A DNA stretch of 10,514 bases from Negativicutes bacterium UBA1444 (lineage in GTDB: Bacteria; Bacillota; Negativicutes; UBA1444), in contig DCTI01000206.1 in the NCBI GenBank assembly GCA_002329525.1, forward strand, positions 5,359 through 15,872, read 5' to 3'. Position numbers and translations under genes: made by a program. The first letter of the stretch is position 1; each line of letters begins with the position of its first letter. The notes beneath the pieces are model-generated. The model searched no databases. It saw only the letters and a program-made list of their open reading frames with translations, and was not told the DNA's origin. Below are positions 1 through 10,514 of this stretch, piece after piece.

Positions 1-726
1 TTTCAAAAAAGAAATTCCCACACCGTGGGCAACCAGCGATTTTACGGTTTCGATCTGCCCCGAGTTAAAAACGATATGGGGTTCGACACCAGCCGCCTGA
101 CAACGTTTCAGAACGGCATGGCGTTGGAAAAAATTGTTTTTCAGCAAAATGAATTTTTCCTGCCGTAAATCTTCAAAAGTTACGCAACTCTTCTGCGCCA
201 GCCGGTGCTCATGGGATACTGTCAGCAGGATTTCCTGCTGGGTAAGGCGAACAGTTTCCAGTGAACCGTGGTTTTCTTCCGGCAAGATGATAATTCCCAG
301 ATCGAGTTCTTCCTGCTCGATGAGACGGTTGGCCGCAAAAGATCCTTCTTCGTAGACATTCAGGGTCAGTTGGGGATACTGGGTTTGAAAACTGGTAAAC
401 AAATAGGGAAACAGACAAGAACCGATCATCGGCGGAATTGCCAGTTTAATGGTCCCACGCGCCAGTGACCGGAGGTCATTCATTTCTGCCAAGGTATCCT
501 GTAGCTCGTGCAACAACTTACAGGCCCGCGTATAAAACAATTTTCCTTCATCAGTAAGAACCGCCTTTTTTTGGCTGCGGTCAAACAGGTCGACCCCTAG
601 GTCATCTTCCAATTTACGGATGGCATGAGTGATACAGGGTTGGCTCACGTATTGTTTTTCCGCCGCCCGGGTAAAACTGCTGGTTTCCACTACCGAAACA
701 AAATATTCCAATTGCCGGATTTCCAT
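1..726 (-). CDS. LysR-family transcriptional regulator (C-terminus cut by window edge)
   Basis: This is a DNA-binding regulator, probably of the divergent dicarboxylate/fumarase/fumarate reductase operon. The frame is open for 242 codons from the ATG at 726-724 and runs off the window, so roughly 50-60 residues of the usual ~300 are missing. The N-terminus (MEIRQLEYFVSVVETSSFTR) begins the typical LysR winged helix-turn-helix, residues about 1-60, with the recognition region AAEKQYVSQPCITHAIRKLE and the conserved LFDR and LTDEG motifs. A linker helix follows (about 62-90), then a periplasmic-binding-protein-like effector domain from about residue 91, containing the family-typical GVGISFL near the cut end. 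It is transcribed away from the operon from a shared 222-bp promoter region holding a T-N11-A palindrome, the classic arrangement for a LysR regulator that represses itself and controls its neighbour. The effector cannot be read from sequence; a C4-dicarboxylate is an inference from context. Confidence 0.95.
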   Translation of the reverse strand, partial: MEIRQLEYFVSVVETSSFTRAAEKQYVSQPCITHAIRKLEDDLGVDLFDRSQKKAVLTDEGKLFYTRACKLLHELQDTLAEMNDLRSLARGTIKLAIPPMIGSCLFPYLFTSFQTQYPQLTLNVYEEGSFAANRLIEQEELDLGIIILPEENHGSLETVRLTQQEILLTVSHEHRLAQKSCVTFEDLRQEKFILLKNNFFQRHAVLKRCQAAGVEPHIVFNSGQIETVKSLVAHGVGISFLK

Positions 727-778
727 GTATTCGCCCCGCTTTTCCCGAATGCCCCCGCTTGGGTCATTACTTTTATTT

Positions 779-784
779 ATTATA
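779..784 (-). promoter_or_regulatory. Putative -10 box of the LysR gene
   Basis: On the minus strand this reads TATAAT, a perfect match to the sigma-70/SigA -10 consensus, about 55 nt upstream of the regulator's ATG. No good -35 hexamer lies 16-18 nt upstream. The spacer and -35 area are covered by the palindrome at 791-815, so a protein bound there would be expected to block this promoter (autorepression, inferred). Confidence 0.5.
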
Positions 785-790
785 TCATGT

Positions 791-815
791 TCTTCATCTA
801 TTGGATTAATGAAGA
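791..815. promoter_or_regulatory. Probable LysR-regulator binding site (T-N11-A palindrome)
   Basis: TCTTCAT (791-797) and ATGAAGA (809-815) form a perfect 7-bp inverted repeat separated by 11 bases. The innermost T and A give the T-N11-A signature of LysR-family recognition sites. It lies between the divergent regulator and transporter genes, next to the regulator's TATAAT and about 10 bp upstream of the extended -10 of the operon. The position suits both autorepression and control of the operon. The symmetry and spacing are seen directly; binding by the adjacent regulator is inferred. Confidence 0.7.
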
Positions 816-822
816 GTCTGAA

Positions 823-831
823 TGTTATAGT
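823..831 (+). promoter_or_regulatory. Putative extended -10 promoter of the dicarboxylate operon
   Basis: The sequence TGTTATAGT contains TG, one base, then TATAGT, an extended -10 element with one mismatch to TATAAT. The matching -35 position (about 803-808) is poor and overlaps the LysR-type palindrome, as expected for an activator-dependent promoter. Transcription would begin near 838, giving a leader of about 110 nt before the transporter start at 949. Confidence 0.4.
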
Positions 832-863
832 AAATATATGTAGGAGTCCGGGCCTGCCCGTTT

Positions 864-907
864 GGTCTGTCTGATTTGTGATCATGAAAAAAGTTTATGG
901 GCAGACC
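864..907 (+). other. Inverted repeat in the operon leader
   Basis: GGTCTGTC (864-871) can pair with GGCAGACC (900-907), with one G-U wobble, across a loop of about 28 nt. It lies in the presumed leader upstream of the ribosome binding site at 934-941. No U-rich tail follows, so it is not a terminator. It may be a modest leader stem or a protein site; function is unknown. Confidence 0.3.
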
Positions 908-948
908 GCATCTTCATCGTCAACCAAAACAGAAAAGGAGGAAATTTC

Positions 949-2352
949 ATGAGTAAAAACCTACGAAACGGTCTTATCGCGATTGCAGTCGGACTTATCC
1001 TCTGGTTCATCCCCACTCCTGCCGGTCTGAAACCGCAGGCCTGGCACCTTGTGGCAGTGTTTGCGGCCACGATCCTCGGATTTATTTTGCAACCTCTGCC
1101 GATCGGCGCCGTCGCCTTTATTGGGCTAGGCATCGCCGGCCTATTGAATGTTCTCAGCCCGGCACAAATTTTGACCGGCTTCGGCGATACCACCATGTGG
1201 CTGATTGTGTCGGCCTTCATTTTTGCCAAAGGATTTATCAAGACCGGGCTGGGCAAGCGGATCGCCTATAAAATCATGGGCGCCATCGGCGACAGCTCCC
1301 TCAAACTCGGTTATGCCCTGGTACTCAGCGACTTGATCATTTCGCCGGCCACGCCGTCGAACACGGCCCGCGGCGGCGGCATCATGTATCCGATCGTACG
1401 CAGCCTGGCCTCGGCTTTTGGCTCGGAGCCGGGGGAAAGCTCCCGTAAGATTGGCGCGTATTTGATGAAGACCGCATTTCAGGGCAATACGATCACTTCC
1501 GCCATGTTCCTGACGGCGGTAGCGCCGAACTCCCTGTGCGCCGCCATGGCCATGCAGGTCGCCAAGGTGGACCTGAGCTGGGGAACCTGGGCGATTGCCG
1601 GCATTGTCCCGGGCCTGATCAGTTTGGCGATTGTCCCCTATGTTCTGTATAAGATTTATCCGCCGGAAATTCACAAAACTCCGGAGGCTAAGGAGATCGC
1701 CCGTAAAGAACTGGAACGAATGGGCCCGATGTCGATGGGCGAAAAAGTGGTGGCGAGTGTATTCTTACTGGCGCTGATTCTGTGGGCCACTTCCAGCTTT
1801 ACGAAAATCAACGCAACCGTGGTTGCCATTGTCTGCGTCGGCTTGATGCTGATTGGGCAGGCGATTGAATGGAAAGATGTCTTGGAAGAAAAAGGTGCCT
1901 GGGATACTTTGATCTGGATGGGCGGTTTGATCAGCTTGGCCGGCGCTTTGAACAAAGTCGGCGTGATTGCCTGGTTTGCCAAACTGGTTGCGGGTTCATT
2001 GGTCGGAATCTCCTGGCAGATGGCGCTGGGCATTCTGCTGATTGCCTATATGTATTCCCACTATGCGTTTGCCAGCCTGTCAGCTCATGTCACCGCGATG
2101 TATGCGGCATTCCTCGCCGTGGCGGTTGGCGCCGGCGCTCCGCCGTTCCTGGCGGCGATGTCCCTGGGCGTTCTGTCCGCGTTGATGGGTGGTATCACCC
2201 ACTATGCGACCGGCCCGGCGCCGATTTACTACGGAGCCGGCTACATTCCCCAGGGGACTTTCTGGAGCCTCGGCTTTGTGGTGTCGGTCATCAACATGAT
2301 TGTGTTCCTGGGCATCGGCTCGTTCTGGTGGAAATTGGCTGGACTGTATTAA
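949..2352 (+). CDS. DASS-family (SLC13/CitT-type) anion transporter, probable di/tricarboxylate exchanger
   Basis: This is an integral membrane carrier of 467 aa, a normal length for the divalent anion:sodium symporter family (PF00939). The start at 949 is chosen because AAAGGAGG (934-941) lies 7 nt upstream; an in-frame TTG at 862 would add 29 polar residues without a ribosome site. The protein is hydrophobic throughout, with a first hairpin signature ATPSNTARGGG (SNT at 137-139) and a symmetric second signature THYATGPAPIYYG (about 418-429), the pattern of the CitT / TtdT / plastid 2-oxoglutarate-malate translocator branch, many of whose members are exchangers. A cytoplasmic charged loop lies at about 240-266. 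As the first gene of an operon with fumarase and fumarate reductase, it most plausibly takes up malate, fumarate, tartrate or citrate and exports succinate. The substrate is inferred, not shown by sequence. Confidence 0.93.
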   Translation: MSKNLRNGLIAIAVGLILWFIPTPAGLKPQAWHLVAVFAATILGFILQPLPIGAVAFIGLGIAGLLNVLSPAQILTGFGDTTMWLIVSAFIFAKGFIKTGLGKRIAYKIMGAIGDSSLKLGYALVLSDLIISPATPSNTARGGGIMYPIVRSLASAFGSEPGESSRKIGAYLMKTAFQGNTITSAMFLTAVAPNSLCAAMAMQVAKVDLSWGTWAIAGIVPGLISLAIVPYVLYKIYPPEIHKTPEAKEIARKELERMGPMSMGEKVVASVFLLALILWATSSFTKINATVVAIVCVGLMLIGQAIEWKDVLEEKGAWDTLIWMGGLISLAGALNKVGVIAWFAKLVAGSLVGISWQMALGILLIAYMYSHYAFASLSAHVTAMYAAFLAVAVGAGAPPFLAAMSLGVLSALMGGITHYATGPAPIYYGAGYIPQGTFWSLGFVVSVINMIVFLGIGSFWWKLAGLY

Positions 2353-2411
2353 ACGGGGCGGGATCGCCCTGTTGCGTACTGATAGGATAACGAGGAAAGG
2401 AATGATGATTC

Positions 2412-3257
2412 ATGCGTGAAATACCCGTGGCGGAAATCACAGCGGCTGTGGCGCAGCTTTCCAAGGAAGCCTGTTGCTATCTGCCCAAGGATGTTTATGA
2501 GGTGTTCCAGAAGGCTCGTGCAGCCGAACCCTCGCCCAGCGGCCGGGAAATTATCGGCCAATTGATGGAAAATGCCGATATTGCCCGCAACGAGGACATG
2601 CCGATCTGTCAGGATACTGGACTGGCGGTTATCTTCATCGATGTCGGACAGGATGTCCACTTCACCGGCGGTTCGCTGGAAGAAGCGATCCATGCGGGGG
2701 TGGCCAAGGGCTATGTGGATTCTTATCTGCGTAAGTCGTCGGTGTCCGATCCGTTGTTCGAACGCAAAAACACCAAGAACAACACCCCGGCGGTAATCCA
2801 TACCCGGATCGTGCCCGGCAACAAAGTGAAAATCAAACTCGCGCCCAAAGGGGCCGGATCGGAAAACAAGAGCGCCGTTAAGATGCTGGTTCCCGCCGAT
2901 GGGATCGCCGGTGTCAAGAAATTTGTCGTGGACACCGTGAAGACGGCTGGCGCCAACTCCTGCCCGCCGATGGTGGTGGGCGTGGGAATCGGCGGTACCA
3001 TGGAAATGGCCGCTATCTGCTCCAAACGCGCTGCCGCCCGGGATGTTGTTTCCCGCAGCAGCGACGAACGCTATGCGGCGCTGGAAGAGGAACTGCTGAC
3101 ACTGATCAATAAGACCGGCATTGGACCGCAAGGCCTCGGCGGCCTGACGACTGCCCTGAAAGTCAACATCGAATGGTATCCCACCCATATCGCCAGTCTG
3201 CCGGTAGCCGTCACCATCAACTGTCACGCGGCCCGTCATGCTGAAGTTGAGTTGTAG
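2412..3257 (+). CDS. Fumarate hydratase class I, alpha subunit
   Basis: This is the iron-sulfur half of an oxygen-sensitive class I fumarase that interconverts fumarate and malate in the cytoplasm. The 281-aa length is typical of the separate alpha subunit (Fumerase domain, PF05681). Three cysteines suited to bind the [4Fe-4S] cluster are visible: C66 in MPICQDTG, C184 in NSCPPMVVGVGIGG and C271 in TINCHAARH. Conserved blocks GYLRKS-like (YVDSYLRKSS, 101-110), NTPAVIH (124-130) and PKGAGSENKS (145-154) resemble fumarases more than the related L-tartrate dehydratase TtdA, so fumarase is preferred, though tartrate dehydratase cannot be excluded. The ATG at 2412 follows GAGGAAAGGA (2392-2401). 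The beta gene begins 14 nt after the stop. The gene lies 59 nt after the transporter with no terminator between, so it is probably co-transcribed. Confidence 0.93.
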   Translation: MREIPVAEITAAVAQLSKEACCYLPKDVYEVFQKARAAEPSPSGREIIGQLMENADIARNEDMPICQDTGLAVIFIDVGQDVHFTGGSLEEAIHAGVAKGYVDSYLRKSSVSDPLFERKNTKNNTPAVIHTRIVPGNKVKIKLAPKGAGSENKSAVKMLVPADGIAGVKKFVVDTVKTAGANSCPPMVVGVGIGGTMEMAAICSKRAAARDVVSRSSDERYAALEEELLTLINKTGIGPQGLGGLTTALKVNIEWYPTHIASLPVAVTINCHAARHAEVEL

Positions 3258-3271
3258 GAGGGATCGTAAAC

Positions 3272-3832
3272 ATGGCAAAAGAACCGATTCGTATTACCGC
3301 TCCGTTTGATGAGTCCGTCGCCCGTTCCCTGAAGGCAGGCGACAGTGTGCTGATTTCCGGAACCATAATCGCCGCGCGGGATGCGGCGCACAAATTGATG
3401 GTGGAAGCGCTCGACCGCGGCGAGAGCCTCCCGGTCGACATGAAGAACCAGGTTGTTTACTATGTCGGGCCGGCCCCGGCCAAACCCGGCGAACCGATTG
3501 GCTCCGCCGGACCGACGACTTCCGGACGGATGGACAGTTACACCCCCCGACTGATTGAAGTGGGCCTCCGGGGAATGATTGGCAAGGGGAACCGGAGTCA
3601 GGCCGTCGTCGAGGCCATGAAAAAACACGGTGTCGTCTATTTCGCCGCCGTAGGCGGCGCCGGGGCGTTGATCGCCAAGCGGATCAAGGAGTATAAAGTG
3701 CTGGCCTATGAAGACCTGGGGCCGGAAGCGATCGCCAAAATGACCGTGGAAGACTTTCCGGTGATCGTGGTCATGGATTCGGAAGGCAATGATTTTTACA
3801 AGGTTGGACAAGCTCCCTACGTTCAGGAGTAA
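3272..3832 (+). CDS. Fumarate hydratase class I, beta subunit
   Basis: This second subunit of the two-part class I fumarase corresponds to the C-terminal Fumerase_C domain (PF05683) of single-chain FumA/FumB. It is 186 aa, normal for the family. Recognisable blocks are SGTIIAARDAAHK (29-41), YVGPAPAKPGEPIGSAGP (64-81) continuing into TTSGRMDSYTP, GMIGKGNRS (101-109) and YFAAVGGAGAL (123-133); the GKGNRS stretch matches the conserved basic substrate-binding loop of this family. The ribosome site TAGGAGGGAT (3255-3264) overlaps the stop codon of the alpha gene, indicating tight co-expression of the two subunits in one-to-one amounts. Both subunits are complete and all recognisable motifs are intact. 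Confidence 0.94.
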   Translation: MAKEPIRITAPFDESVARSLKAGDSVLISGTIIAARDAAHKLMVEALDRGESLPVDMKNQVVYYVGPAPAKPGEPIGSAGPTTSGRMDSYTPRLIEVGLRGMIGKGNRSQAVVEAMKKHGVVYFAAVGGAGALIAKRIKEYKVLAYEDLGPEAIAKMTVEDFPVIVVMDSEGNDFYKVGQAPYVQE

Positions 3833-3861
3833 CCGGGAGGAAAGCAAGGAGGGATGCAGGC

Positions 3862-4473
3862 TTGAACAGTAACGAATTTTATCTGAAGCGGCTTCACTCC
3901 CTGATGGGAGTAATACCGCTGACATTTTTCCTGTCGGAACACATCTTTACCATTACTAGGGCGATCGCGGGACCCAAGGCGTTTGACGCGGCTACGGCCT
4001 TTTTGCAGAGTTTGCCAATGCTGTATGGGCTGGAAATTCTGTTTATCGCGTTGCCCCTTTTGTTTCATGGCGTTTACGGGCTGTTTATCACGTTCGAATC
4101 CAAGAACAACGCTTTCTCCTATACATATGCCCGCAACTGGAACTTCTATCTGCAACGGATAACGGCGATCATCACTCTGGTGTTCGTGGCCTGGCACGTG
4201 TACCTGTTCCGTTTCGGCGGCGCCGGCCTGGGGCAGGTGACGACCTTCGCCATGGTGGCAAAGATTTTCGCCGATCCGCTAATGCTGACCTTACATGCCA
4301 TCGGCTTTGTCTGTGCCGTATTCCACCTGACCAACGGACTGTGGACTTTCCTGATCACCTGGGGCGTCACGGTCGGACCGCGGGCGCAGCAGGTCAGCCA
4401 ATTTTTGATGTGGGCCCTGTTTGCCGTGCTGAATGCGGGCGGACTCGTAGCGCTCACTTATTTCCGGGGATAG
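3862..4473 (+). CDS. sdhC: Succinate dehydrogenase / fumarate reductase di-heme cytochrome b subunit (type B)
   Basis: This membrane anchor carries electrons between menaquinone and the SdhA/SdhB head. The 203-aa protein has five hydrophobic segments and follows B. subtilis SdhC closely: FYLKRLHSLMGVIP near the N-terminus, FHGVYGLFITFESKNNAFSY, and HLTNGLWTFLITWGVTVGPR. Four histidines, H27, H69, H112 and H155, fall one residue or less from the four known heme ligands of B. subtilis SdhC (28, 70, 113, 155), so two b hemes are expected. The start is TTG at 3862, selected by AAGGAGGG (3846-3853) 8 nt upstream and by alignment; the ATG at 3854 is out of frame. In an operon with fumarase and a dicarboxylate carrier, fumarate reduction is the likely physiological direction, but sequence alone does not separate the two directions. 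Confidence 0.95.
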   Translation: MNSNEFYLKRLHSLMGVIPLTFFLSEHIFTITRAIAGPKAFDAATAFLQSLPMLYGLEILFIALPLLFHGVYGLFITFESKNNAFSYTYARNWNFYLQRITAIITLVFVAWHVYLFRFGGAGLGQVTTFAMVAKIFADPLMLTLHAIGFVCAVFHLTNGLWTFLITWGVTVGPRAQQVSQFLMWALFAVLNAGGLVALTYFRG

Positions 4474-4485
4474 GGGGCGCAGAAG

Positions 4486-6261
4486 ATGAAATTTATCGTA
4501 ATCGGTGGCGGCGCAGCCGGCCTGATGGCCACACTGCGGATTGCCGAGCTCAAGCAAAATGTGGAACTGTTCTCCCTGGTGCCGGTCAAGCGTTCGCATA
4601 CGGCCTGCGCCCAGGGCGGGATCAATGGCGCGATCAATACCAAAGGGCAAAACGACTCCACCCAGCAGCACTTTGAAGATACGATTCTCGGCGGCGACTT
4701 TCTCGCCAACCAACCACCGGTCAAAGCCATGTGTGAAGCGGCTCCCGGCCTGATCCACCTGCTGGACCGTATGGGAATGATGTTTACCCGTACTCCGGAA
4801 GGGTTGCTGGACCTGCGTCCCTTTGGCGGAACCAAACACATCCGTACCGCTTTTTCCGGCGCCAGTACCGGCCAACAACTTCTATATGTTCTGGATGAAC
4901 AGGTTCGCCGGTATGAGCAACAAAAACAGGTCACAAAACATGAACATCACGAATTCATCCGGCTGATCCTCGATGACAACGGCGAGTGCCGCGGCATCGT
5001 GGCGCAGGATATGTACACCATGAAAATGGAGGCTTTCGCGGCGGATGGCGTTATCATTGCCACCGGCGGCATCGGCATGGTATTCGGTCGCAGCACCAAC
5101 GGCACGATCTCGACCGGCTCGGCAGCTTCCATCGCCTACCAACAAGGGGCCATTTACGGCAATGGCGAATTCATTCAGATCCATCCGACTGCCCTTCCTG
5201 GCGAGGACAAGCGCCGCCTGATGTCGGAATCGGCCCGCGGCGAGGGCGGCCGAATCTGGACGATGAAGGACGGCAAACCATGGTACTTCCTCGAAGAGTG
5301 GTATCCGGCCTATGGAAACCTGGTGCCGCGCGATATCGCGGCCCGGGCGATCTTCAAGGTGTGTACGGAAATGGGGCTGGGCGTTGATGGGCAAAATCTC
5401 GTCAATCTGGACCTGACCCATCTCGATCCCAAGGAAATCGACCGGAAACTTGGCGCCATCGTGGAAATCTACGAGAAATTCGTCGGTGAAAATCCCCGCA
5501 TCGTACCGATGAAGATCTTCCCGTCGATGCACTATTCCATGGGGGGGCTCTGGACGGATTACGGCCATCATACCAACATTCCGGGCCTGTTTGCGGCCGG
5601 CGAATGCGACTATATGTATCACGGCGCCAACCGGCTCGGCGGCAACTCCCTGCTGTCAGCTACCTACAGCGGCATGGTGGTGGGACCGTCCGCCGTCAAC
5701 TACGCCAAGGATCGGGGTGCGCGCAAGCCCCTCGATTCGAGCGTATTACAGGCGGCCAAGGAACGCGAGGAAGTTGTGTTCGAAAACCTGTTGCGCATGG
5801 ACGGCAAGGAAAATCCCTTCCAGATTCATCGCGAAATGGGCGACTGGATGACCGAGAACGTCACCATCCAACGTTTCAACAAAAAACTGCAGGAGACCGA
5901 CGACAAACTGGCGGAATTGCAGGAACGCTGGAAACGGGTTGGTGTCAGCGATTCGTCGAAGCACGCCAATCAGGTGGTCATGTTTACCCGGCAGCTTTGG
6001 AACATGCTGGAACTGGCCCGCGTGATTACCAAAGGCGCCTTGTTGCGGAATGAAAGCCGCGGCGGACACTTCAAGCCGGAGTTTCCCGAACGGGATGATG
6101 AAAACTGGCTGAAGACCACCAAGGCGGCTTGGACACCGGACGGTCCGCAATTCAGCTATGAAGAAGTCGATACTTCTTTGATCAAACCGCGGGCGCGTCG
6201 TTACGACGTCGACAACACCAAAAAATCCGATGCTGGTCAGGCCGCGAAGGGGGCGAAATAA
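4486..6261 (+). CDS. sdhA: Succinate dehydrogenase / fumarate reductase flavoprotein subunit
   Basis: This is the catalytic FAD subunit interconverting succinate and fumarate on the cytoplasmic face. The 591-aa length is close to B. subtilis SdhA (586). The Rossmann FAD motif VIGGGAAGLMA is at 5-15, starting almost at residue 1. The segment KRSHTACAQGGINGA has H38 at the position of the covalent FAD histidine. Active-site blocks are QIHPTALPG (H233), ESARGEGGR (R251, R256), NLVPRDIAARA (R282, expected proton-transfer arginine) and SMHYSMGGLW (H349). AGECDYMYHGANRLGGNSL (371-389) is the usual C-terminal FAD-binding block. The last ~20 residues are lysine- and alanine-rich, as in other type B homologues. 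It begins 12 nt after sdhC, with a G-rich ribosome site inside the gap, and ends 1 nt before sdhB. No key residue is missing. Confidence 0.97.
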   Translation: MKFIVIGGGAAGLMATLRIAELKQNVELFSLVPVKRSHTACAQGGINGAINTKGQNDSTQQHFEDTILGGDFLANQPPVKAMCEAAPGLIHLLDRMGMMFTRTPEGLLDLRPFGGTKHIRTAFSGASTGQQLLYVLDEQVRRYEQQKQVTKHEHHEFIRLILDDNGECRGIVAQDMYTMKMEAFAADGVIIATGGIGMVFGRSTNGTISTGSAASIAYQQGAIYGNGEFIQIHPTALPGEDKRRLMSESARGEGGRIWTMKDGKPWYFLEEWYPAYGNLVPRDIAARAIFKVCTEMGLGVDGQNLVNLDLTHLDPKEIDRKLGAIVEIYEKFVGENPRIVPMKIFPSMHYSMGGLWTDYGHHTNIPGLFAAGECDYMYHGANRLGGNSLLSATYSGMVVGPSAVNYAKDRGARKPLDSSVLQAAKEREEVVFENLLRMDGKENPFQIHREMGDWMTENVTIQRFNKKLQETDDKLAELQERWKRVGVSDSSKHANQVVMFTRQLWNMLELARVITKGALLRNESRGGHFKPEFPERDDENWLKTTKAAWTPDGPQFSYEEVDTSLIKPRARRYDVDNTKKSDAGQAAKGAK

Positions 6262-6262
6262 G

Positions 6263-7018
6263 ATGGGCGAAACGCAAAAAACCGTTCATCTGATTGTGCA
6301 ACGGCAGGATTTGCCGGATTCGAAACCGTATACCGAAGAATTTGTAGTACCCTGGTCATTGGGCATGAATGTGGTCTCCGCCCTGATGGCGGTTCAGAAA
6401 AACCCGGTGACGAAAGACGGTAAAGTGACAAAACCGGTGGTGTGGGAATGCAACTGCCTTGAAGAGGTCTGCGGCGCCTGCGCCATGATGATCAACGGCA
6501 AACCGCGCCAAGCCTGTTCCTGCCTGGTGGACAGCATTCCCCAGCCGATTCGTCTGGCGCCGCTCAGCAAGTTTCCGGTCGTGCGGGACTTGATGGTCGA
6601 CCGGCAGAAAATGTTCGACAATCTGAAGAAAGTGCAGGCGTGGGTCGCCATCGACACCACGGCGAACCTCGGGCCCGGACCCCGCATGTCGCGGGCGCAG
6701 CAGGAGGAAGTGTATCCCTTGTCGCGTTGCATGACCTGCGGCTGCTGCATGGAGGCCTGCCCGAATTTCAATGAAAAATCGGCATTCCTCGGACCGGCGC
6801 CGGTGGCACAGGTCCACCTGATGAATCAGCATCCGACCGGCGCCATGCAGAAGGCGAGTCGCCTGGAAGCCCTGATGGGGCCGGGTGGGATTGCCGGTTG
6901 CGGCAACGCCCAAAATTGCGTGGAAGTCTGCCCGAAGAGCATCCCGTTGACGACCTCGCTGGCCAAACTGAATCGTCAGGTTAACAAGTTTGCACTCAGC
7001 AAACTGTTTGACAACTGA
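6263..7018 (+). CDS. sdhB: Succinate dehydrogenase / fumarate reductase iron-sulfur subunit
   Basis: This electron-wire subunit links the FAD of SdhA with the hemes and quinone site of SdhC. The 251-aa length matches B. subtilis SdhB (253). The ATG at 6263 is preferred over an in-frame upstream TTG at 6230 because it follows GAAGGGGGCG (6246-6255) and gives the expected N-terminus, MGETQKTVHLIVQRQD. Cysteines for [2Fe-2S] are C65, C70, C73 and C85 (C-x4-C-x2-C-x11-C). The second domain has C156, C159, C162 and C166 (CMTCGCCMEACP), then C213, C219 and C223 in AGCGNAQNCVEVCPK, enough for the [4Fe-4S] and [3Fe-4S] clusters. One base separates its start from the sdhA stop, so translation is probably coupled. 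It is the last gene of the operon, with a terminator beginning 14 nt after its stop. Confidence 0.97.
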   Translation: MGETQKTVHLIVQRQDLPDSKPYTEEFVVPWSLGMNVVSALMAVQKNPVTKDGKVTKPVVWECNCLEEVCGACAMMINGKPRQACSCLVDSIPQPIRLAPLSKFPVVRDLMVDRQKMFDNLKKVQAWVAIDTTANLGPGPRMSRAQQEEVYPLSRCMTCGCCMEACPNFNEKSAFLGPAPVAQVHLMNQHPTGAMQKASRLEALMGPGGIAGCGNAQNCVEVCPKSIPLTTSLAKLNRQVNKFALSKLFDN

Positions 7019-7031
7019 CCGTCCGCAAAAT

Positions 7032-7083
7032 AAGCGGCTCCGCGAACCCATTGCTTTGGGTTTCGCGGAGCCGCTTTCTTTTT
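7032..7083. terminator. Strong bidirectional rho-independent terminator
   Basis: The left arm AAGCGGCTCCGCGAA (7032-7046) pairs perfectly with TTCGCGGAGCCGCTT (7062-7076). The stem extends by CCCA/TGGG across a one-base bulge at 7061, leaving a 6-nt loop. The plus strand ends in TTCTTTTT, ending the fumarate reductase operon. On the minus strand the stem is followed by ATTTT, so it can also stop transcripts from the convergent phospholipase gene. Confidence 0.95.
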
Positions 7084-7155
7084 GCGTGGGGCAGGAGAGA
7101 GGACCTGCACTGACGTGTTTTACCATCGAATCGCATCATCCGGGAATTCTGTCAC

Positions 7156-8235
7156 CTAGCGGAAGCGTCTCGGCTGCATCAAATCGTTCTGCGGATTGAT
7201 CCGGCGCAGTTCGGCTTCCACGCGATCAAAGGCTTCGGCAGACAGCCGGTTGCCCAGCTCGCTGTTGCGATCGCGCCACCAGTAATAGGCGGCGCATTGA
7301 TTGACTAGATAGCGGGAACTGTCCGCGATCTCTCCGGCGCGGCGATTCCAGTCAGCGATGAACGAACCCTTGGATAAGGTCTCCCTGTATTCTGCCAAAG
7401 GGGGCAGGTCTGTCAAAACTGAGAGAACTTTGCCGACGCTGGGCCGGAATCGGCGGATCAGCCGTTTCATCCTGGCAATTTCCGCTTCGGAATGTTTCGA
7501 CTGATAGCCATACCAACGGGTAGAATCGGTCATCAGGTCGGAAGCAAGCGTAAACGTCCGCAAAAAATATTCCGGATGCCGTTCATAAAAAGTGTTCTTG
7601 GGATAAACTTTCCCCAGTGCCATTCGCAGATATGCTCCCGGCACCGGCGCGCCGCGTGTCTCGTAGGCAATGTTCCGCAGCCGTATTCCTTCCAGTTCCA
7701 GAACATGTCGCATTTCCAGCGCTTCCAGCCGATCATGCCGTTTCATCGCCGGATCGTCAAAACTGGTGGGGTCAACGACATAGCCGCCGTGCCGATTGAT
7801 CAAGTCGTGGATATAGGAGTCGGTGACGTAATGGGACAGCCAACCGATGGCAAAAGCCCGGTCCGTCGGTTGTTCGGCATTGACCAGCAATTGGAGGGCA
7901 ACCTTTGTTGGTTGGACTTGATGCACATCATCGAGTTGGGCGGAGACCGGGCGGAGATTTTTTGGGAGACTGATGCCGTATTGTTTCTGTAATTAGCCAT
8001 TAATCCGCGGACTGGAGATCATGTGGGCCAACCAGGCGGAATCCGGTGCAAGCGATCCGAGAAAAAATTCGGCGCGAGTTTGTTCCTGCAGGTCGAGATA
8101 GCGTCCTGCAGGCGATTGAATCATGATGTCCGCAAAGTATAGATGCCCGTAAACCTGGCTGGCTTTGGCCAATTGCGGCGTACCGGCAGCGACAAGCAAG
8201 CAGAGGAGAAGCGAACGTACCCAAAAGCGTTTCAT
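7156..8235 (-). pseudogene. Secreted zinc-dependent phospholipase C-like protein, interrupted by an in-frame TAA
   Basis: The frame from ATG 8235 to TAG 7156 would give about 358 residues but carries one TAA at codon 81 (7995-7993). Both sides are in the same frame: before the stop are a signal peptide (MKRFWVRSLLLCLLVAAG, predicted cleavage after AKA near 25), GHLYFADI (H31) and FFLGSLAPD (D65); after it are DDVHQVQ (H105) and IGWLSHYVTDSYIHDLINRH, with the HxxxDxxxH metal signature H135, D139, H143. These match the zinc-dependent phospholipase C family (PF00882), a secreted lipid hydrolase fold using three zinc ions. A good ribosome site (AAAAGGAGT, 8250-8242) precedes the first ATG; none precedes the GTG at 7926 that could restart the second half. 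It is either a very recent pseudogene, a sequencing error, or a read-through case. It is convergent with the fumarate reductase operon and shares its terminator. Confidence 0.8.
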
Positions 8236-8241
8236 GGCCAG

Positions 8242-8270
8242 ACTCCTTTTGGCGACTTCATGAGATTATA
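8242..8270 (-). promoter_or_regulatory. Putative -10 box and ribosome site of the phospholipase-like gene
   Basis: On the minus strand TATAAT lies at 8270-8265 and AAAAGGAGT at 8250-8242, 6 nt before the ATG at 8235. The TATAAT is a perfect consensus, but no clear -35 hexamer is seen at the usual distance. The intact expression signals suggest the reading-frame stop downstream is a recent change. Confidence 0.45.
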
Positions 8271-8625
8271 TCGAAAATAATACGCTGGAAATGAACGAAA
8301 TTCCTCCTTGAAAAAACGACTGAATCAGACTGATGGGAGGAAAAAAACGCCAGCCGGCGAAAAAATAAATATAGGGAGGCTGGTTATATCTCATTCGTGG
8401 GTAAGTATAGGAAATCGTTGTAACAGGACTGGCAGACCGGTGTACCTTAAGGCGAGCGGGGGAAAGGGATCTTTTTGGGCTGATGGCCGGGTCCCGCTAA
8501 AGGGTTTGTGATAACGGCAAGACGATACTGCGGCAGCGTTGCTGGCTTGATGTTGCAGCAATGCAGTCAATGTATTGCTGGCGAAAGAGGTTCTCTGCTC
8601 AGCGACCACGGAAAGGAACGATAAG
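8271..8625 (+). other. Gene-free region with several inverted repeats (leader of the fusion gene)
   Basis: No convincing gene is present in these roughly 350 bases; a 67-codon frame from TTG 8308 lacks a ribosome site. Several self-complementary blocks occur: CGCC/GGCG (8348-8359), CCAGCC with GGCTGG (about 8350-8383), AGCGGG (8455-8460) with CCCGCT (8493-8498), and three mutually exclusive partners, TTGCTG (8539-8544), CAGCAAT (8556-8562) and ATTGCTG (8574-8580). The last set allows either of two hairpins, each with an 11-nt loop, just upstream of the ribosome site GAAAGGAA (8611-8618). I compared it by eye with T-box, cobalamin, TPP, SAM, THF, c-di-GMP and guanidine motifs and saw no match. 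No clear promoter was found. Confidence 0.4.
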
Positions 8626-10514
8626 ATGCAGGTGTGGCGAATAGGGTTGTTTCGTCCGGAGGATGCGGCAGGGGTCGTTGCCTTGTATCGGACTGTCTAT
8701 GGGGAGGATTACCCAGTAAAAAATGTATATGATCCTACCCAGCTGGTCCGGGAGATGGCGACGGGAGAGGCTATTCGCGTCATTGCCCGCTCCCTGACGG
8801 AGGAAGTCATTGGTCACATTGCATTCTACCGCTCGTCGCCGCCGAATCGCCGCCTCTATGAATATGGACAGATGATGATCCGGTTTGACTGGCGCAATAC
8901 GCCGTTGGCGTTCGAACTCGGCGATTTTGCGATTGACACCGCGGCTAGGGAACAGGGAATCGACGACTTGTGGGGAGAAGCGGTCTGCCATCATCCAGTT
9001 ACCCAACAGATGTGCGCTGGCCAGGGATTTCAGGCCACCGGACTGGAAATTGGCCTGATGCAGGGGGCAGGCTGCTCGCGGGCTATGCAGAACCGCACCG
9101 CTCCTCAGGAGCGGGTGTCAGCGGTTTTGGTTTTCCGCAGTACGGCGCCCCGCCGGCAGCGCCTGTATGTTCCTGCGGAATACGAAGAAATTTTGCGGGA
9201 AATCTATGAAAAATGGAGTGACGAATCCACGCTGGAACTGTCGTCTGATCAGACCTTTCCCGCATTTTCGGGGCGGAGCGAGCTCCGCAATTTCCGCGAG
9301 GCCCGTGTGGGGCGAATCACGGTCGAAACAATCGGTGAAGATTTTTTGCGCCGGCTGGTTGAGCAGGAATCGAGAATTTCCGCGAACGGCTGCGTCGTGA
9401 CCCAGGTATTCCTTTCTCTGGCCGATCCGGCAATCGGCGCGGGCGTATCGGCGTTGCGGCGGCGGGGCTTTTTCTTTGGAGGGGCCTTGCCGCGCTGGTT
9501 CGGCCACGATGGGCTGTTGATGCAGAAAGTGCTGGCGACGCCGGACTTTTCCAAGATAGTGCTGGCGACCAAACAGGCACGGCGTCTGGGGATTTTTGTC
9601 CGGGAAGATTATGAGCAGGTCCGGATCGCCACAGTGGGCGGCCTTTTGAAACGGCGCGCCGCGGAACTTGGCAACCGTACGGCGGTGATCTGGGCGGCGC
9701 GTAATCTCCGGCAGACTTACGCCGAACTGTATGATTCCGCGTCAACAGTGGCAAAGGCCCTTGCCGCTTCTGGTGTTGTCCCAGGGGAGCATGCCGCTGT
9801 CTGGGCGCCGAACGTTCCGGAATATCTGGCCGTCGAGTTTGGCTGCGCTTTGGCCGGCGTGCCGGTTCTGTTCATTAATTCCGGCTACAGGGCCTATGAG
9901 CTGGAATATGCCCTGCGGCAGTCGGATATCCGCATCCTGTTTTTGGCGGACGGCAATCTGCAGCCGGGTGAGTATGTGGACATTGTGGGCGAGGTGCGGG
10001 CGGCTTTGCCGGAACTTCGCCACACCGTAGTATTTGGAGAAAACGGCGGTGACGGATTCACGGCCTGGCGGGAATTCCTAACCCGGGGGAGTGGTCGCGA
10101 CAATGCAGCTATTGTCTGTGGCGGCGATATTTTCAGCATTCAATATACTTCCGGCACGACCGGTCAACCCAAAGCCGCGCTGCTCAGCCATCAGGCCTAC
10201 GTTACCAACAGCTTTGCAATAGCAGAACGCCAGGGATTGACCGATGCCGATGTGGTCTGCGTGCCGCTGCCGCTGTTTCACGCCTACGGCTGTCTGACTC
10301 TGTTATCGGCTTTGGCGGCCGGGGCGACCGCCGTGGTCAGCGAGCGTTTCCGCGCGGCCGATCTCCTGACTGCTATTGAACGGTATGGCGGGACGGCGAT
10401 ATCCGGGACTCCCACGATGTTCGTCGCGGCCTTGACCGAGATTGAAACGCATCCGTATGATCTGTCCTCTCTGCGGAGCGGCAATGTCGCCGGCGCTTTC
10501 TGCCCGCCGGAACT
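8626..10514 (+). CDS. GNAT acetyltransferase-like / acyl-CoA synthetase (ANL) fusion, C-terminus cut by window edge
   Basis: One uninterrupted frame of 629 codons runs from ATG 8626 (preceded by GAAAGGAA) off the end of the window. Residues 1-145 look like a GNAT acyltransferase: RPEDAAGVVALYRTVYGEDYP, a beta-bulge-like strand around VIGHIAFYRS, and AREQGID where the CoA pyrophosphate loop is expected, though this departs from the usual Q/RxxGxG/A. Residues about 165-330 resemble a second GNAT-like half (RRGFFFGGALPRWFGHDGLLMQ, 278-299). From about 335 an AMP-binding domain begins, with P-loop YTSGTTGQPK (507-516), PLPLFHAYG (547-555), SGTPTMF (593-599) and SGNVAGAFCPPE (618-629), the pattern of FadD/medium-chain acyl-CoA synthetases. 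The missing part should hold the rest of the ATP site and the hinge and catalytic lysine. The substrate is unknown. One chain might activate an acid to its CoA ester and also transfer an acyl group, or the GNAT part might sense acyl-CoA or modify the synthetase lysine (inference). Confidence 0.85.
   Translation, partial: MQVWRIGLFRPEDAAGVVALYRTVYGEDYPVKNVYDPTQLVREMATGEAIRVIARSLTEEVIGHIAFYRSSPPNRRLYEYGQMMIRFDWRNTPLAFELGDFAIDTAAREQGIDDLWGEAVCHHPVTQQMCAGQGFQATGLEIGLMQGAGCSRAMQNRTAPQERVSAVLVFRSTAPRRQRLYVPAEYEEILREIYEKWSDESTLELSSDQTFPAFSGRSELRNFREARVGRITVETIGEDFLRRLVEQESRISANGCVVTQVFLSLADPAIGAGVSALRRRGFFFGGALPRWFGHDGLLMQKVLATPDFSKIVLATKQARRLGIFVREDYEQVRIATVGGLLKRRAAELGNRTAVIWAARNLRQTYAELYDSASTVAKALAASGVVPGEHAAVWAPNVPEYLAVEFGCALAGVPVLFINSGYRAYELEYALRQSDIRILFLADGNLQPGEYVDIVGEVRAALPELRHTVVFGENGGDGFTAWREFLTRGSGRDNAAIVCGGDIFSIQYTSGTTGQPKAALLSHQAYVTNSFAIAERQGLTDADVVCVPLPLFHAYGCLTLLSALAAGATAVVSERFRAADLLTAIERYGGTAISGTPTMFVAALTEIETHPYDLSSLRSGNVAGAFCPPE

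Follow-up and report, generated by a model that had tools for sequence, protein, structure and literature searches.

The window, the whole stretch of 10,514 nucleotides that was analysed (G000:C167:5359-15872, Negativicutes bacterium UBA1444), carries an open reading frame in which a GNAT-like region is fused to an AMP-forming acyl-CoA ligase of the ANL type (8626..10514, forward strand, like the parts of it described below). The frame starts with an ATG at 8626, with an in-frame TTG upstream at 8575, and reaches the assembly mark at the window end; the full-length form is represented by P0002, a protein of 855 amino acids. The first part encodes the GNAT domain proper (residues 1-178, 8626..9159), in which alignments and residue counts place a degenerate CoA pyrophosphate loop, R90-N-T-P-L-A95, at 8893..8910. 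It is followed by a second half of the GNAT region, delimited by secondary structure (residues 179-333, 9160..9624), and by the N domain of the ligase (residues 342-629 in the window, 9649..10512; PF00501, E 9.5e-58) with the P-loop or A3 motif YTSGTTGQPK at 10144..10173, recognized from the sequence and from motif counts. Positions 1-7018 hold what we take to be genes for a LysR regulator, a dicarboxylate transporter, a two-subunit fumarase and fumarate reductase; the gene clusters of this part also precede the fusion in L017.

The genome is fragmented (275 contigs, 73% complete), and both window ends are 'NN' marks of the contig. P0002 is 99% identical to the window protein across the first 631 residues without interruption, and the remainder of the ligase is encoded past the contig's 'NN' in a different frame, where residues 622-855 of P0002 align at 93.6% identity with the true match starting at about residue 638. 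A frameshift or stop in the fusion gene was considered and rejected, since the break lies at the position of the 'NN'. Because P0002 is uninterrupted and the ligase remainder is encoded past the mark, the fusion is real, its interruption at the window end being due to an assembly mark. A sequence-only reading of this DNA had proposed that a GNAT-like region of about 330 residues is joined to an acyl-CoA synthetase in one chain, unless a stop or frameshift at about residues 330-345 separates them; the joined chain is confirmed, as P0002 is intact and runs through this stretch, with the sole break at the 'NN'. The assignment as a GNAT was also right, with the GNAT fold found in a fold search and the homologues in agreement, and the architecture that it suggested looking for elsewhere recurs in at least 43 of 82 homologues.

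Properties of the GNAT and ligase halves

The top fold matches of the GNAT include phosphinothricin-type small-molecule acetyltransferases, together with ribosomal-protein and N-terminal protein acetyltransferases, and this mixture leaves the class of acceptor undecided. No Pfam acetyltransferase model matches the window protein or P0002, such a model scores above cut-off in three of eight scanned proteins (P0037, P0014 and P0061), NCBIfam gave nothing above cut-off for the GNAT homologues P0037 and P0054, and a profile of the GNAT part found weak matches only among PDB sequences (best E 0.13). The consensus of the CoA loop (motif A) in GNATs is R/Q-x-x-G-x-G/A, as given in PMC8556138. All 41 fused proteins have R90 at the first position, where 39 of the 41 others carry either R or Q, and the last one is A or G in all 41 fused proteins. 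The middle glycine is replaced: the window protein has Pro here, whereas Asp is the commonest residue among fused proteins. The usual GNAT tyrosine, at the position where our own reading places it, is not conserved. Use of acyl-CoA by the GNAT half is therefore not assured. Residues 179-333 may have a GNAT-like order of strands and helices, by our reading of the secondary structure; hhalign of this half against the first detected no sequence repeat.

Other positions are nearly invariant. Counts were made for 41 fused proteins and 41 others, the latter comprising 35 partnerless proteins, two NRPS fusions, a lyase and an MFS fusion, and P0031 and P0082, the two short proteins among the 43 ANL-bearing homologues. 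E79, G81, E118, V120, H123, Q127 and E141 occur in 41/41 fused proteins and 39-41/41 others (40/41 for E79, G81, H123, Q127 and E141), and E79, E118, H123, Q127 and E141 are each present in at least 80 of the 82. In the second half, R230, G237, Q260, W291, D295, Q300 and D328 are found in all 41 fused and all 41 other proteins. As the same residues are invariant in both sets, conservation of the GNAT does not depend on a ligase being attached.

For the ligase half, Foldseek of the P0002 model showed the ANL fold, and the only Pfam domains found in this protein are PF00501 and PF13193. The latter is the ANL C-terminal domain, with motif A8 at 746 and the A10 catalytic-lysine motif, PLTASGKIQK, at 832; the window's own C-terminal part is encoded on the same contig past the NN mark, outside the window. 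Strict patterns for A3, A5, A7, A8 and A10 were matched in 37, 40, 39, 35 and 36 of 41 fused proteins, respectively, and since these motifs are kept in most of them, the ligase half looks active. By Pfam, P0002 has no carrier domain and thus does not qualify as an NRPS module, in which one would follow the adenylating part. The best NCBIfam model for the window protein is NF009233 (1.1e-69, but 235 bits versus a cut-off of 832), which types the ligase as a fatty-acid CoA ligase below cut-off, and no match above cut-off was found among the best 25 of 100 families listed. The ligase class varies between loci: the L080 ligase, encoded in the order ANL>GNAT, passes the cut-off of TIGR02262 and so belongs to the benzoate-CoA ligase family, and the split ligase of L021 has its best match, below cut-off, with a fatty-acid CoA ligase model.

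Homologues and fusion partners

Two protein searches, the first of which scored the 7995 candidates with most shared words, gave at least 82 different homologues; these counts are lower bounds. Apart from the 43 proteins with an ANL part, 35 are partnerless, two are fused to NRPS domains, one to an aromatic amino acid lyase and one to an MFS transporter. P0071 joins the GNAT to NRPS C-A-PCP domains (L020:4695-8321, Syntrophomonas sp. STD2_151) and P0072 is a shorter A-PCP version; the PF00550 carrier domain is listed for both. In P0063 the best NCBIfam match of the lyase part is phenylalanine ammonia-lyase, below cut-off, and in P0081 the MFS transporter is located ahead of the GNAT. On a tree of the 82 homologues the ANL label requires 4 changes versus a shuffled mean of 27.5. 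It is strongly clustered, yet does not form a single clean clade. Two ligase-free rows lie amid fused ones and may be truncated, P0001 being from a contig of 1482 bases and P0018 from one of 1177.

Within the window's class, 32 of 300 genomes harbor the GNAT family (E 1e-20), and seven fused copies are found in six genomes, including the cut copy of G000. The fusion occurs as open frames of 865-882 amino acids in G001 (twice), G011, G028, G037 and G045. In G053, G078 and G086 the GNAT gene adjoins that of a close ligase without being fused to it, with a gap of 27 bases in G053 (L101, GNAT 8697-9731, ANL 7023-8669). At G075:C100:24074-25072 a GNAT match with an in-frame TAG adjoins a ligase; a second, uninterrupted GNAT lies further on at 27719-28720. 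Distant matches of the GNAT family were also seen in open frames of 503-631 amino acids (G134:C34:128655-129629, G078:C14, G053:C48 and C39, G086:C1:11938 and G073:C141), which are possible further fusions.

Gene neighbourhood

Past the NN mark, the window's own contig encodes on one strand the large, 2Fe-2S and FAD subunits of a Mo hydroxylase, a protein labelled c4 and a HisC-like aminotransferase, and then, on the same strand, a STAS-like ORF, an RsbW-like HATPase, an NMT1-like protein and a dCache-HAMP-SpoIIE protein. The aminotransferase scores 296 bits versus a cut-off of 277 for histidinol-phosphate transaminase and could therefore be an ordinary HisC. The c4 protein (L005:6946-8214) has about 430 amino acids; its N-terminal part is a weak match to RsbW/RsbA-like HATPases, and the remainder is distantly homologous to the GNAT region in its full extent (hhalign probability 94%, E 1.4e-7, 262 columns). 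The N-box and G-box of c4 appear degenerate by our reading.

Similar loci were collected by a scan of named genomes, from which the best 80 of 96 confirmed stretches were used. Genes were called with a simple ORF chooser, by which starts and some lengths are rough and the GNAT was retained in 79 of the 80 loci, and neighbours were assigned by scans with one to three members per family. The labels STAS, XdhC, MobA and 2-oxoacid/indolepyruvate oxidoreductase are presumptive. Going by genome names, most loci belong to syntrophs, sulfate reducers and other deltaproteobacteria or to Firmicutes, but the names Rhodoferax, Hyphomicrobiales, Thiocystis, Acidobacteria and Chlorobiaceae occur as well. 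An aminotransferase is present in 50 loci, FeS/FAD subunits in 46, the Mo large subunit in 43, c4 in 40, MFS in 35, a separate ANL in 25, RsbU/W in 19 and STAS in 16. At least one of aminotransferase, Mo-hydroxylase subunit and c4 is found in 58/80 loci, and aminotransferase, Mo large subunit and c4 occur together in 33/80. With only 2-9 Mo-domain family matches per genome, some of them fragments, in six genomes of the window's class, chance fails to explain the Mo large subunit in 43 of 80 loci. A chance gathering of the neighbourhood was rejected on this co-occurrence and on the adjacency of c4 and aminotransferase, which adjoin in 40 of 40 loci with both (shuffled mean 5.2).

Four of the 80 loci were scored as fused, with ligase fusions in L016, L017 and L023 and the NRPS fusion in L020, the adenylation domain of which matches the ANL profile. 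Of the 25 loci with a separate ANL, 19 have it as the immediate same-strand neighbour of the GNAT (shuffled mean 6.0, max 11), in the order GNAT>ANL in 5 and ANL>GNAT in 14. Neither an ANL nor a fusion is found in 51 of the 80 loci within the stretches examined, some of which are on short contigs. Among cultured organisms with the locus, Desulfosporosinus fructosivorans (L046) has adjoining GNAT and ligase genes, and for Syntrophomonas wolfei subsp. methylbutyratica (L092) a GNAT but no ligase was seen. MFS adjoins the GNAT in 19/34 loci (shuffled mean 5.9, max 12). For the Mo subunit (10/40 loci; shuffled mean 5.8, max 12), the aminotransferase (6/48; mean 7.5), c4 (6/38; mean 5.7) and MATE (3/7; mean 1.0, max 5), the number of loci in which the gene lies beside the GNAT is not above every shuffle. 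The tie of the GNAT to Mo subunit, aminotransferase and c4 is thus one of co-occurrence, which exceeds expectation, whereas adjacency does not.

The surroundings of the fused copies in the class were covered for six of seven, namely those of G000, G001 (two), G011, G028 and G045. The copy of G000 and one of G001 (C46:181037) lie immediately upstream of the Mo hydroxylase. No Mo hydroxylase is found in the stretch examined for the second G001 copy (L016) or for G045 (L023), and in G028 more than 1.7 Mb separate the fusion from the Mo-domain and aminotransferase matches. The G011 fusion gene (L105, G011:C19) is preceded on the same strand by cellulose-synthase-like (with PilZ), MBOAT, AlgX-like and cellulase genes, and a link of this fusion to polysaccharide acylation is possible; the G011 locus stands apart from the fusion and has no GNAT within the 19.9 kb examined. 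Four of six examined fused copies are therefore outside the locus, which argues against a tie between the two. In one G086 locus (L104) an ANL precedes the Mo hydroxylase and two GNATs are located several genes upstream, not adjoining.

Further genes were noticed near GNAT copies. Additional copies are close to beta-ketoacyl-ACP synthase III-like genes in L101, L104, L140, L080, L097 and L099 (one member scanned). On another contig of the window's own genome (C129, L097:4729-10116) an arginine-deiminase-family-like gene, a shortened ligase, KASIII and a standalone GNAT are consecutive, with Mo-hydroxylase pieces beyond the latter. L037 and L058, from Desulfarculus-named MAGs, have four consecutive GNAT-cluster genes, followed by what we presume to be 2-oxoacid oxidoreductase genes. 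A 4'-phosphopantetheinyl transferase gene (PF01648; L022:12124-12795, Pelotomaculum sp.) is found beside the GNAT and ANL genes but is oriented in the opposite direction.

Possible functions and relation to known systems

We favour, at slightly better than even chances, the view that the fusion is a bifunctional biosynthetic enzyme of which the ligase makes an acyl-CoA and the GNAT uses its acyl group to acylate a small molecule. The C-terminal ANL half would convert a carboxylic acid to its CoA thioester using ATP and then CoA, and the acyl group would flow to the N-terminal half for transfer to an amine (or hydroxyl) of the acceptor. This acceptor would likely be made or modified by products of the adjoining genes, the three-subunit Mo hydroxylase of the xanthine dehydrogenase family and the HisC-like aminotransferase. 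Export of the product might proceed by MATE or MFS carriers, and the STAS/RsbW/SpoIIE partner-switching module may control the locus. An acyltransferase acting on a small molecule is favoured because the ligase-free GNATs are equally conserved and because of the nature of the other fusion partners: the NRPS A-PCP and aromatic-lyase partners can be read as suppliers of an activated acyl group or a precursor. The MFS fusion P0081 mirrors the frequent MFS-GNAT gene pair.

The sequence-only reading had offered two roles, of which the two-step enzyme seems to fit the neighbourhood and the fusion partners, whereas the other, built-in control by acetylation of a ligase lysine as in Pat/AcuA systems, is disfavoured. 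Such control, in which the GNAT half would acetylate the catalytic A10 lysine, acting on the ligase in cis or trans, would be in keeping with the A10 motif of P0002 and with the presence of both activities in one chain. Moreover, Pat control of AMP-forming ligases is established according to PMC4053389 and PMC8556138. Nevertheless, we consider it improbable. The fusion is not a Pat of type I or II, having an AMP-forming rather than NDP-forming partner with intact motifs, and the CoA loop of its GNAT is degenerate. Control would also predict that ligase-free homologues are rare or decayed, but GNATs of this family exist without a ligase or fused to NRPS, MFS or lyase partners and keep their invariant residues, and in G106 and G138 the ligase is missing where the GNAT gene lies between those of the MATE carrier and the Mo hydroxylase. 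The recurrence of the family near a Mo hydroxylase, an aminotransferase, an exporter and regulators of the SpoIIE/RsbW type likewise speaks against control.

The degenerate loop and the tyrosine position would agree with a catalytically dead GNAT half that acts as an acyl-CoA sensor or scaffold and reports to its partner, be it a ligase, an NRPS, a transporter or the HATPase-like c4. The make-up of c4, in which a GNAT-region homologue is joined to an RsbW-like HATPase part near STAS/RsbW/SpoIIE genes, points the same way. However, the near-invariance of E79, E118, H123, Q127 and E141 resembles an active site more than a constraint of the fold, and no regulated activity is common to the fusion partners, which makes a sensor unlikely, if somewhat less so than acetylation control. 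Finally, the fusion might lack functional meaning and result from stop loss between two operon neighbours. The split form with a gap of 27 bases shows that such neighbours exist, and the ligase label changes four times on the tree, though P0001 and P0018 are from contigs below 1.5 kb. Against this, the fused form persists in a large portion of the tree and retains the motifs of its two halves, and the separate genes still adjoin well above the shuffled mean; we give this explanation very little credence.

Extending the two-step enzyme to the whole locus, we can only speculate, with clearly less confidence, that the fusion serves to load acyl groups in an undescribed small-molecule system, found mostly in genomes bearing the names of anaerobic groups. 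This system would comprise the Mo hydroxylase, the aminotransferase, GNAT acyltransferases whose acyl supplier can be exchanged (for a CoA ligase, NRPS module, aromatic lyase or KASIII), an exporter and a dCache-SpoIIE/NMT1/STAS/RsbW relay that senses something extracellular, perhaps the exported product itself, acting as a signal or redox mediator. In the open-access literature, to which the search was confined, we found no description of the GNAT-ANL fusion or its locus. Both its fusions and the order of the genes around it tie this GNAT family, which has no assigned role, to a metabolic locus that recurs. If the two-step reaction is correct, the fused or neighbouring acyl supplier of each variant hints at the acid used, which makes the product testable.

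Among known systems, the ligase half shares the ANL fold and motifs with 4-coumarate, feruloyl and fatty acyl-CoA ligases and with aryl adenylases, but identities are 25-32% among the best 50 Foldseek matches listed and the NF009233 score is far below cut-off. An acyltransferase ahead of an AMP-forming acyl-activating enzyme is also found in Aas, the acyl-ACP synthetase/2-acyl-GPE acyltransferase, the acyltransferase of which is PlsC-type and not a GNAT; P0002 is without a PlsC-type Pfam domain and has a GNAT fold instead. The GNAT region, with its putative second GNAT-like half behind the first, is reminiscent of the type V tandem GNATs such as Eis (PMC8556138). No sequence relation to the fusion GNAT was found for these, for 4my0 or for the histidine acetyltransferase 9emd, the latter two being among the fold matches, and with 4my0 aligned over 200 residues at an rmsd of 4.5 and 9emd over 192 at 6.8, a shared domain arrangement is not established. 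Similar in architecture are the Pat/PatZ/PatA enzymes of types I and II, which, according to PMC8556138, combine a GNAT with an inactive NDP-forming synthetase domain in one chain, the GNAT being a single domain of about 200 amino acids. The fusion likewise joins a GNAT region to an acyl-CoA synthetase-like region, but its ligase is an AMP-forming ANL with intact motifs and its GNAT region extends to about 330 amino acids.
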